Both the position numbers and the translations under genes were made by a program. DNA of 64,000 bases from Aurantiochytrium sp. KH105. Taxonomy: Eukaryota; Sar; Bigyra; Thraustochytrida; Thraustochytriidae. The notes under the pieces were generated by a model, which saw only the letters and a list, made by a program, of their open reading frames with translations, was not told the DNA's origin and did no database searches. This document shows, piece after piece, positions 20,465-31,045 of this stretch; within the stretch, counting starts at the first letter, position 1; the number at the start of each line of letters is the position of its first letter. Where the stretch lies: NCBI GenBank assembly GCA_003116975.1, contig BGKB01000043.1, positions 310,001-374,000 on the forward strand, read 5' to 3'.

Positions 20465-20569
20465 CTCGAGATAGCTCAGTTGGTAGAGCGTTGGATTGTA
20501 GCGTTTAGCTAGAAGCGATTCTGGCTGTCTGATTTCCACTGGTCTTCGGTTCGACTCCGGATCTCGAGA
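20465..20569 (+). tRNA. tRNA-Tyr (GTA) with intron, copy 1
   Basis: The acceptor stem is CTCGAGA/TCTCGAG with C1-G72 and A73, the eukaryotic tyrosine identity elements. The D arm is GCTCAGTTGGTAGAGC, the anticodon loop has GTA followed by G37, and the T arm contains GGTTCGACTCC. An intron of about 32 nt sits after position 37; it contains an AGCTAGAA/TTCTGGCT hairpin. A T-rich pol III terminator follows from about 20573. Confidence 0.9.
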
Positions 20570-21673: not shown

Positions 21674-21778
21674 TCTCGAGATCCGGAGTCGAACCGAAGA
21701 CCAGTGGAAATCAGACAGCCGAAATCTCTCTCGGCTCAACGCTACAATCCAACGCTCTACCAACTGAGCTATCTCGAG
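21674..21778 (-). tRNA. tRNA-Tyr (GTA) with intron, copy 2
   Basis: The mature part is the same as copy 1. The intron hairpin differs (AGCCGA paired with TCGGCT). The A-run at about 21639-21660 reads as a T-run terminator on the minus strand. Confidence 0.9.
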
Positions 21779-21864: not shown

Positions 21865-21969
21865 TCTCGAGATCCGGAGTCGAACCGAAGACCAGTGGAA
21901 ATCAGACAGCTAGAATAAATCCTAGCTAAACGCTACAATCCAACGCTCTACCAACTGAGCTATCTCGAG
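21865..21969 (-). tRNA. tRNA-Tyr (GTA) with intron, copy 3
   Basis: The mature part matches copies 1 and 2. The intron hairpin pairs AGCTAGGA with TTCTAGCT. The A-run at 21849-21860 forms the minus-strand terminator. Confidence 0.9.
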
Positions 21970-22058: not shown

Positions 22059-22163
22059 TCTCGAGATCCGGAGTCGAACCGAAGACCAGTGGAAATCAGA
22101 CAACCAGAATCGCTTCTAGTTAAACGCTACAATCCAACGCTCTACCAACTGAGCTATCTCGAG
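22059..22163 (-). tRNA. tRNA-Tyr (GTA) with intron, copy 4
   Basis: The mature part matches the other copies. The intron hairpin pairs AACTAGAA with TTCTGGTT. An A-rich stretch at 22048-22058 would act as terminator on the minus strand. Confidence 0.9.
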
Positions 22164-22754: not shown

Positions 22755-23549
22755 TTACTCTTCTTCCGGTGGCGCAAGGATCTGATTCTTGATACGCTCG
22801 ACAGCCTCATCAGCTTCGGTCAGCTGCGTGTAAAAGTCGAGGAACTTGCCATCAGGCCCAATGAGATAGCTAACGATGCTGTGGTCAACGAGGTAGTCGT
22901 CTTCATTCTCTTCGTCTTGGTCGGCAATAGAGTGGTACACGCGAAAGGCCTTGCAAGCACGCTGAACCTGGCCTGGCGTACCGGTGAGGCCGACCATGCG
23001 TGGGTGAAAGTCCTTGATGTAGTGTGCGACCTGATCGACGCCATCGCGCTTGGGATCAACGGAAATGAAGACAGGCACGACGCGAGGACCAATCTCTGGG
23101 TCTGCGTCGAGCTTTTCGACAATCTCTGTAATCTTGATGAGCTCTGCCGGGCAAATATCAGGGCAGTATGTAAAGCCAAAGTAAAGTAGGGCATGGGTGT
23201 GACCTCCTTCTTTGAGAGAGGCGTCCGTGACAGGCCGGCCCGTGTGGTCAACGAGCGTCCACGGCCCACCGAGAAGCGGTTTGCCAATGACGCGCTGGTT
23301 CTTGGCCTTTACACGCTCAATTTTTGCCTCCTTTTCCTTGACGTAGTACGCCACGAGGCCTGCGCCGACGGTGGCCATGAGCGCGAAGCTCGCCCACGAG
23401 ATCGGCCCGCGACCACGACCCATCCGATCGCTTTGTCCACTCTCACCTGGGCCCGCCGACGCGGCCAAGCGCCGAATCCCAAGCACTCGATGCGCGGGCA
23501 CAGGCGCGGACCGCAGGCCCGCGCGCGCAATCGCTCGCACGCCCAGCAT
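22755..23549 (-). CDS. SCO1: SCO1-type mitochondrial copper chaperone
   Basis: The 264-residue protein has an Arg/Ala-rich targeting peptide (about 1-35), one transmembrane segment (51-70) and a thioredoxin-like domain from about 90. The copper ligands of the family are all present: Cys129 and Cys133 in YCPDICP and His223 in LVDHS. SCO proteins deliver copper to the CuA site of cytochrome oxidase subunit 2 in the intermembrane space. VPVFISVDPKRD and the FHPRMVGLTG segment are typical. Only one paralogue is seen in this window. The 3' end faces the tRNA cluster. Confidence 0.95.
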   Translation of the reverse strand: MLGVRAIARAGLRSAPVPAHRVLGIRRLAASAGPGESGQSDRMGRGRGPISWASFALMATVGAGLVAYYVKEKEAKIERVKAKNQRVIGKPLLGGPWTLVDHTGRPVTDASLKEGGHTHALLYFGFTYCPDICPAELIKITEIVEKLDADPEIGPRVVPVFISVDPKRDGVDQVAHYIKDFHPRMVGLTGTPGQVQRACKAFRVYHSIADQDEENEDDYLVDHSIVSYLIGPDGKFLDFYTQLTEADEAVERIKNQILAPPEEE

Positions 23550-28894: not shown

Positions 28895-31045
28895 ATGTGG
28901 GTCGATGCATTCGGAGCCCAGGACCCGGACATCGAGCAACGGACCATTTTTGAGCAAAAAGTGCTCATGGGCAGCGAGCTCGTGATCGCCATGTGCTACT
29001 TTATCATTCCAGCCCTCATCTTCTGGTACATGCGTGGCATCGAGGTTGCTGACGTCTTCCTCACCGTGCGTGTCTGGTTCATGCTCTTCATCCTCTGCTG
29101 CGGCATCACGCACTTTCTCGGCTTTCTCAGCTTTTGGTGGCAAATCACATGGGTCATCACACTTGGCAAGCTGGTCACGGCATTCGTCTCCGTAGCGACT
29201 ATTGTCGTGCTCTTGCAGTACATGTTTGACCTCGACAAACTCATGCGCAAGGCAGCGCAGCTCGAAAAGGACGTCGATGCGTCCATCCGCCAACTCGACT
29301 CGCTCAAGATGCGCAACGAAGAGCTCGCGCGACTTAAAGAGGAGGCGCTTCGCATCGCCAATATGAGGCAAGAGTTCATCTCCACTGTCTCTCACGAGGT
29401 CCGTACCCCTCTCCAGAGCATCATTGGCTTTGGCGAGATCCTCGAGCAAAGCGAGCTCGACCCCTCGCAAAAACAAATGCTCTGCACCATGATGGAAAGT
29501 TCTCGCATGCTCTGCACCATCATCAACGACATTCTTGACTTTAGCAAGTACCAAAAGGAGAACTTTGCCCTCGAGGTTGAGCCCTTTTCCATCGTTGGTG
29601 CCATCGTCTCTGCTCTACGCATTTCCTCAAGTCGTGCTACGGCCAAGGGCGTCGACCTTCGCTACCAGGTCTGTAACCGACTGCCCGGCATCCTCCTTGG
29701 TGACCTCACCCGAGTCGTTCAGATCGTCTCCAACCTCGTATCGAACGGTGTTAAGTTCACCGAAGAGGGCAACGTCACGGTCATGGTGAGCAGTGTCGCC
29801 TCGGAACAGGAAAAGAATGCTTGGATTGAAAAGTTCAACGCCCGCGACAATACTTTTACACTCGAGGACACTCCGGACTCGTCCGAGGCCGATCTTCCCG
29901 AAGAGATTGCAAAGTGCGGCGCTGGAGACGCAAACTTGGACCGCGCATCCAGTTTCAAATCGTCGCGTCCACCTCATATTTCGGTGCAAATCGAGCCCAG
30001 CGAATCATCGGGCCTCCTCGCCGACAAGTCACCCTCGCCGCGTCGCCACGTCCCCCTCGACATGGAAGGTATCGCAACGTCTGCCGTCCCCGACGCGACT
30101 GTGAACAGGCGCGACTGGGGCATTAGACTCGAGGTCAAGGACACGGGCGTTGGCGTGCCCAAGTCGTCGTTCGCCCGCATCTTTCGCCGGTTCATGCAGA
30201 GCGACGCATCCACCACCCGCATCTTTGGAGGCACGGGTCTCGGGCTTTCCATCGTGCAGCAGCTCACAAACTGCATGAAAGGCAGCATCCATCTCGAGAG
30301 CACCATGGGCGAGGGCACTACATTCACGATCTTCCTCAAACTTCCACCTCAGGCAGAAACACCCATTCTCCTCCCAATGTCCTCCCCAGAGGTCCTCCCG
30401 CCGCCCTCCATCTCACCAAGGGCCAGCGACATCGACATCAAGCCTGGTTCCCTCTCTGAAATCGCGCGCATCGGAGACTCTTCAACGACGAGCGAGACAA
30501 AGGAGGTCGACCCGTCGACATCCCGCGCGTCTGCAAATGCCTCCAAGGCCAGCGACAGAAAGAAAGCGCCCCCTAAAGCTGCGCCCGATCTCCTCTGCGA
30601 TATCTCGCGTGTCCTGCTCGTTGATGACAACGAAATCAACCGTGCCGTCACGAAGCCCATGCTGCACAAAGCAGGGGTTCCCAATGTTGACACGGCAAAG
30701 AATGGCCAGCAGGCCTACGAAAGAATGCTCGCTGCAACAGAGCCTTACGACGCCGTTCTCTTAGACCTGCACATGCCGGTTCTCGATGGCTTCGGCGCCG
30801 TGCAAAAAATTCGCCTCAACTTGCGTGCCGCCGACGCTGTCCCCATTTTTGCCTTCACGGCAGCCTCTTTTTCCACCTCTGAGAGTGCTGAACTTCGAGA
30901 AAAGGGCTTTTCCGGCATTGTCTTCAAGCCTTGCACAATTGCGCGCATTCGGACAGCGATGGAGCTTGCTGCGCAGTTCAAGCGCAACGAAATTTCTGCC
31001 GACGACCTCTTCTCGCGGTCCGAGTCCATCTACACGCAAAGGTGA
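28895..31045 (+). CDS. Ethylene-receptor-like hybrid histidine kinase
   Basis: The 716-residue protein has three N-terminal membrane helices (about 28-48, 57-79, 84-109) resembling the ETR1 ethylene-binding domain. Helix 1 has Tyr35, Ile38 and Pro39, and helix 2 has Ile66, Cys69 and His73, in the spacing of ETR1 Tyr32, Ile35, Pro36, Ile62, Cys65 and His69; Cys and His hold the copper cofactor there. ETR1 Asp25 corresponds to Glu28. There is no GAF domain; a coiled coil (115-160) leads to the H-box with His167 (FISTVSHEVRTP). The ATPase has its N-box Asn284 and Gly boxes DTGVGVP and GGTGLGLS. The receiver domain (571-695) has Asp577/Asp578, phospho-acceptor Asp624, Thr655 and Lys678. All phosphorelay residues are intact. 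Strong start context (CACCATGT). An AATAAA lies at 31275-31280. Confidence 0.92.
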   Translation: MWVDAFGAQDPDIEQRTIFEQKVLMGSELVIAMCYFIIPALIFWYMRGIEVADVFLTVRVWFMLFILCCGITHFLGFLSFWWQITWVITLGKLVTAFVSVATIVVLLQYMFDLDKLMRKAAQLEKDVDASIRQLDSLKMRNEELARLKEEALRIANMRQEFISTVSHEVRTPLQSIIGFGEILEQSELDPSQKQMLCTMMESSRMLCTIINDILDFSKYQKENFALEVEPFSIVGAIVSALRISSSRATAKGVDLRYQVCNRLPGILLGDLTRVVQIVSNLVSNGVKFTEEGNVTVMVSSVASEQEKNAWIEKFNARDNTFTLEDTPDSSEADLPEEIAKCGAGDANLDRASSFKSSRPPHISVQIEPSESSGLLADKSPSPRRHVPLDMEGIATSAVPDATVNRRDWGIRLEVKDTGVGVPKSSFARIFRRFMQSDASTTRIFGGTGLGLSIVQQLTNCMKGSIHLESTMGEGTTFTIFLKLPPQAETPILLPMSSPEVLPPPSISPRASDIDIKPGSLSEIARIGDSSTTSETKEVDPSTSRASANASKASDRKKAPPKAAPDLLCDISRVLLVDDNEINRAVTKPMLHKAGVPNVDTAKNGQQAYERMLAATEPYDAVLLDLHMPVLDGFGAVQKIRLNLRAADAVPIFAFTAASFSTSESAELREKGFSGIVFKPCTIARIRTAMELAAQFKRNEISADDLFSRSESIYTQR

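Follow-up and report, generated by a model that had tools for sequence, protein, structure and literature searches.

A predicted hybrid histidine kinase of the ethylene-receptor family with glutamate at the Asp25 site in Aurantiochytrium sp. KH105

Background

Can a heterotrophic marine protist sense ethylene, and can it do so with a receptor in which one binding residue of the plant protein has been replaced? The question is raised by a gene on contig BGKB01000043.1 of the thraustochytrid Aurantiochytrium sp. KH105. The gene lies in a stretch of 64,000 nucleotides (hereafter, the window; 55.4% G+C). A sequence-only reading of this DNA had described the product as an ETR1-type ethylene sensor on a hybrid kinase in a non-plant protist. 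The genome report for the strain gives 76.7 Mb of scaffolds in its text (86.0 Mb in a table) and 54.4% G+C, and the organism is thought to be diploid (PMC5924542).

Receptors of this type have been recorded in several groups outside plants. Ethylene-receptor homologues are listed for the Labyrinthulomycetes, filamentous marine protists, in a 2019 review that cites Kabbara 2019 and other work, so the receptor lineage is not new (PMC6944256). Homologues occur in several SAR groups, none of them functionally tested by 2020 according to a review of that year (PMC7700396). Early-diverging fungi carry homologues of both plant receptor subfamilies (PMC5285503). Among the matches listed in a literature search on thraustochytrids and ethylene, judged by titles and abstract openings, there is no ethylene-receptor paper.

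Gene and domain architecture

The gene begins with the ATG in CCACCATGTGG and runs as a single open frame of 716 codons (Table 1). A Pfam scan of the protein finds four domains in the order ETR1_N, HisKA, HATPase_c and Response_reg. The only other entry at E ≤ 1 is ZapB (E = 0.078), which falls under its cut-off; neither a GAF domain nor any other sensor family is listed at that threshold. The three domains that define a hybrid histidine kinase (HisKA, HATPase_c and a receiver) are present with their catalytic residues. Residues kept for the phosphorelay are H167 in an SHEVRTP motif, N284, D416, a GGTGLG box at 445, D577-D578, D624, T655 and K678, and the phosphorelay is intact, as the sequence-only reading had it. 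The end of the sensor is separated from the H-box by 53 residues, and the protein lacks the GAF domain that follows the sensor in plant ethylene receptors of subfamily 1.

Table 1. Coordinates of the receptor gene and its parts in the window, and of the paralogue
Feature	Location	Strand	Remarks
Hybrid histidine kinase gene	28895..31045	+	716 aa, read as one exon; copy from the other haplotype on contig C221
Ethylene-binding-type transmembrane domain ETR1_N, residues ~24-113	28964..29233	+	Pfam, hydropathy, AlphaFold2: three long helices
Glu28 codon (GAG), ETR1 Asp25 site	28976..28978	+	Alignment
Cys69 to His73 (CGITH), counterparts of ETR1 Cu(I) ligands C65 and H69	29099..29113	+	Alignment
HisKA dimerisation/phospho-acceptor domain, residues 157-220	29363..29554	+	Pfam; His167 = 29393-29395
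HATPase_c catalytic domain, split by insert	29570..30346	+	Two Pfam stretches, best = 403-484; start estimated
Insert within HATPase_c, ~97 residues (306-402)	29810-30100	+	Bounds estimated
Receiver domain (Response_reg), residues 573-689	30611..30961	+	Pfam; acceptor Asp624 = 30764-30766
Paralogue, second ethylene-receptor-type hybrid kinase	L003:1405-3252 (contig C96); L004:28-1875 (contig C147)	L004 minus	7/7 binding residues

The catalytic domain is interrupted between its N-box and G1 box by an insert rich in serine, proline and acidic residues. This insert is an open frame in both haplotypes of the gene (see below), and the paralogue has a shorter version. That it is an unspliced intron seems unlikely: splicing at one GT-AG pair, judged by eye, would disrupt the frame, and both haplotypes read through. 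Introns are nevertheless possible for this gene, since 4.7 exons per gene were modelled in a related strain (PMC5924542).

Two other features of the window may be recorded here. A gene of the SCO1/SenC copper-chaperone family lies at 22755-23549 (minus strand), about 5 kb from the receptor gene. It is probably the ordinary mitochondrial one, and its linkage to the receptor is likely to be chance. At 20465-20569 (plus strand) and at 21674-21778, 21865-21969 and 22059-22163 (minus strand) lie four tRNA matches, all 105 bases long and equal in score. Three are in tandem, about 190 bases apart, and the matches seemingly carry an insertion at the anticodon arm. ARAGORN finds no tRNA in the window.

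The sensor domain

The N-terminal region matches the ETR1_N family (PF25487) far above its cut-off. In the whole protein the match scores 72.8 bits (E = 2.8e-20), where the cut-off is 27. The first 119 residues scanned by themselves give 8.5e-22, and the same sensor reaches 77.5 bits in the profile search of the genome. The sequence-only reading had named a missing profile match as grounds for abandoning it; the match is there, and together with the intact relay residues it bears out an ETR1-type sensor on a hybrid kinase.

Hydropathy marks hydrophobic stretches at residues 22-49, 48-82 and 84-114, and none past residue 140. Residues 1-130 were modelled with AlphaFold2 from an alignment of the window sensor with 39 bacterial relatives drawn from the best 80 loci (see below); the mean pLDDT is 91.2 and the pTM 0.75. 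The model contains long helices at 11-46, 56-78 and 85-129 and a short one at 50-53. The two methods agree on the three transmembrane helices characteristic of the family. Solved structures include no relative by sequence (best E values 0.36 and 0.091, both to unrelated molecules) and no match to the modelled fold (Foldseek, best E 0.84). Because no solved structure resembles the model, the predicted fold could not be compared with that of an experimentally solved receptor. Among viral predicted structures the best match is a protein without a name (E = 2.8e-3), and phage records give no match.

The lack of a similar solved structure might be taken to favour a chance match, or a generic three-helix membrane domain unrelated to ethylene binding. 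Such an explanation is improbable in the extreme. It is refuted at the sequence level by the margin of the ETR1_N score over its cut-off and by the alignment of the motif residues at the right spacing (see below), and the profile matches just four places in a 76 Mb assembly. The predicted product of the gene is anchored in the membrane and belongs, as a hybrid histidine kinase, to the ethylene-receptor family.

A second receptor and two haplotypes

With the window sensor as query, six-frame searches of the strain's own assembly (76,034,492 bases in 367 contigs; introns disregarded) find four places, which are also the four matched by the ETR1_N profile. They comprise the window gene, a 99% copy on contig C221, and a pair on contigs C96 and C147 that is 34% identical in the sensor domain. 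Each pair is taken to be a single locus in its two haplotypes. The window gene and its C221 copy were compared over 619 of 716 codons, of which 43 differ silently and 15 by an amino acid change. Within residues 1-115 the corresponding counts are 7 and 1, which fits constraint on the sensor. Glu28 is present in both haplotypes.

The C96 and C147 copies represent a paralogue and differ from each other at 34 codons silently and at 6 with a change of amino acid. This second protein has 615 residues counted from its ATG (sequence P0002 starts one codon earlier), and its domains follow the same order: ETR1_N (1.6e-15), HisKA, HATPase_c and Response_reg. Its spacing between sensor and kinase is likewise too short for a GAF domain.

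Binding residues and the Asp25 site

The window sensor was aligned with the paralogue and with Arabidopsis ETR1. Y35, I38, P39, I66, C69 and H73 align with ETR1 Y32, I35, P36, I62, C65 and H69, and neither motif is gapped. Six of the seven ETR1 binding residues thus stand at the positions and spacing given in the sequence-only reading. Cys69 and His73 fill the places of Cys65 and His69, the copper ligands by which the family is recognized, again as that reading held. K92 and S99, aligned with ETR1 K91 and S98, are also kept. The seventh residue was correctly picked out as changed: E28 aligns with ETR1 D25. Measured against the full set of seven residues defined by ETR1 mutagenesis, the window protein has six, and the paralogue, with Asp at this site, has all seven.

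This substitution affects a residue of some consequence. Mutating either Cys65 or Asp25 abolishes binding in ETR1, and in models of that receptor Asp25 positions His69 and bonds Lys91 (PMC11819568). An Asp-to-Asn change at the site leaves a receptor that works with about 100-fold lower affinity, and natural variants exist (PMC13012798). A literature search on D25E and ETR1 found no test of glutamate at this position. To call the window protein a complete receptor, as had been done, therefore goes too far: Asp25 matters in ETR1, and the glutamate that replaces it is found in only 1 of 172 bacterial domains.

That count comes from a survey assembled in several parts. The first set consisted of the best 80 of 273 confirmed bacterial relatives from a genome scan, with Asp at the site in 76, Glu in none, and L, S, N and a gap in the other four. 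To these were added 30 best-match loci and 20 hand-picked places, chiefly among the weak matches, from the phylum of the cyanobacterium L008, in which 74 of 292 genomes have ethylene-type sensor matches. The phyla of L005 (29 of 398 genomes matching) and L047 (28 of 294) contributed 30 loci each. The pooled survey has 190 loci, 189 of them with a match, and its alignment comprises 193 distinct domain sequences. Since some of the 193 are weak matches outside the domain, counts are restricted to the 172 domains (170 loci) that have both Cys65 and His69, a sample that is bacterial only and biased to high-scoring copies. Asp occupies the site in 162 of these, Asn in 3 and Gly in 2, with Ser, Glu, Ile, Gln and a gap once each. 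All seven binding residues are present in 147. In L161, the sole row with Glu, the K91 site is occupied by Leu, so the combination of Glu25 and Lys91 seen in the window protein occurs in 0 of 172.

Domains of the ethylene-binding type are also encoded by nine putatively viral contigs from a viral collection (L203-L211). A first scan of such contigs gave 85 pattern matches with none confirmed, and a second with another profile confirmed 9 of 28. Asp is found at the Asp25 site in seven of the nine and Glu in none. L203 and L204 share an identical protein start. L203 carries HisKA and HATPase domains, L205 an HWE kinase, and L207 is a stand-alone domain.

Downstream components in the genome

The assembly has HisKA domains at 16 places (seemingly 8 pairs) and receiver domains at 36 (seemingly 18 pairs). 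Hpt is found at two places that form one pair (Pfam 9.3e-8, HSIKGSS motif). DNA was compared for the two receptor pairs; the rest were paired by their nearly equal scores. A homologue of RTE1 is present as one pair (L091 and L092, on contigs C33 and C47; 1.7e-47). RTE1 acts with ETR1 in plants. It also occurs in organisms that have no ethylene receptors, so its presence is weak support for ethylene sensing. An EIN3 search of the genome gave no match, but its controls gave none either, and absence is not established.

Enoyl reductase domains of the PfaD type are also found in the assembly, as two pairs (1.2e-212 and 4.5e-204) within open frames of 1845-2152 amino acids. This family was matched as well in 3 of 14 bacterial controls, above the cut-off in one, so the match alone is not specific. 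Thraustochytrid PfaB is described as a single protein with KS-CLF, AT and ER domains (PMC12895367).

Proposed mechanism and alternatives

By analogy with ETR1, the three N-terminal helices would form the sensor and hold Cu(I) through Cys69 and His73. A small olefin, most likely ethylene, would bind the copper, and the helices would relay the resulting change through the short linker directly to the kinase. His167 would then be phosphorylated and would pass the phosphate to Asp624, and from there it would probably reach the only kind of Hpt in the genome; the residues are observed, and their order of use we infer.

With moderate confidence, we favor a working copper-based olefin sensor, most likely for ethylene, with an affinity below that of the paralogue. 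Weaker ethylene binding would be expected because the affinity-setting Asp of ETR1 is Glu28 here. The match of the isolated sensor to ETR1_N, the six binding residues with Lys92 and Ser99, and the three-helix model all argue for such a sensor, as do the intact His, Asp, Asn and G-box residues and haplotype differences that fit constraint. The Hpt and RTE1 pairs are consistent with it, and related domains in Azospirillum and Synechocystis bind ethylene (PMC11819568). What weighs against it is the site itself, with Glu so rare and its pairing with Lys91 absent from the bacterial sample, and with Asp25 mutants of ETR1 losing or weakening their binding (PMC11819568, PMC13012798).

The same substitution could instead have changed the ligand. 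The window protein would keep Cu(I) and now sense carbon monoxide, another small alkene or the copper supply, while the paralogue would stay an ethylene receptor. Intact copper ligands beside an affinity residue altered in both haplotypes would suit this division, as would the paralogue's full set of seven residues. We nonetheless think it unlikely, as there is no direct pointer to another ligand, the change from Asp to Glu is conservative, and Lys92, the equivalent of the residue proposed to pair with Asp25 in ETR1, is kept. It is more doubtful that ethylene binding has been lost, leaving a ligand-blind dimer partner of the paralogue or a constitutive kinase or phosphatase. Abolished binding in ETR1 on mutation of Asp25 (PMC11819568) and the near absence of Glu from natural domains point in that direction, but the other six residues are all kept, and the ratio of silent to changing differences in residues 1-115 is what a domain still in use would be expected to show.

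The preferred olefin sensor may form part of a larger arrangement. Only tentatively can it be suggested that one cell has two ethylene-type receptors, with Asp in one and Glu in the other at the affinity residue, that share a single Hpt relay.

Relation to known receptors

The window protein shares with Arabidopsis ETR1 a three-helix sensor bearing the Cys and His of the Cu(I) site, followed by a histidine kinase and a receiver, and is 34% identical to ETR1 over the first 130 residues. It differs in having no GAF domain, Glu28 in place of Asp25, and the ATPase insert of about 97 residues. The homologues in Labyrinthulomycetes and other SAR groups, known here from the reviews' descriptions, have the same kind of domain and very probably belong to the same organism group (PMC6944256, PMC7700396). 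SynEtr1 and AzoEtr1, bacterial receptors demonstrated by experiment, follow the same sensor-kinase logic with phosphorelay output; unlike the window protein, they have all seven residues and a response regulator that is a separate protein, and AzoEtr1 has been expressed in the yeast Pichia (PMC11819568).

Direct coupling of sensor to kinase is also seen in bacteria. The H-box pattern used here is found further along the same frame in 33 of the 80 loci (the best 80 of 273 relatives), and in 7 of the 33 it lies 80 residues or fewer from the sensor. Four Limnobacter loci (L007, L016, L017 and L019) resemble the window protein in leaving no room for a GAF domain, but they have Asp at the Asp25 site and 16 residues between sensor and H-box, against 53. 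Lineage and the missing GAF domain had been singled out as the points of interest. The absence of GAF holds, but neither point is novel, given the earlier Labyrinthulomycetes homologues and the GAF-less spacing of those seven bacterial kinases and the paralogue.

A tree had been proposed for placing the protein among cyanobacterial, plant and fungal copies. Trees of the sensor (83 rows) and the kinase (36 rows) include bacterial copies, with ETR1 as the only plant copy and no fungal copies. The end branches leading to the window protein, the paralogue and ETR1 are 1.99 to 3.63 changes per column long, and the window protein and paralogue join weakly (65/97 in the sensor tree, 90/52 in the kinase tree). 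With such long branches and weak joining, the trees do not place the origin of the receptors and permit no conclusion on transfer or a plastid source.

Conclusion

With two receptors unlike each other at the affinity residue, few other kinases and one Hpt pair, this genome makes a clean natural test. The two receptors could show whether ethylene sensing is preserved, weakened or redirected by a change from Asp to Glu, and whether ethylene evokes any response in a heterotrophic marine protist. If the two do work together, an Asp/Glu receptor pair would read ethylene, or two small ligands, over a wide concentration range near plant or algal debris.
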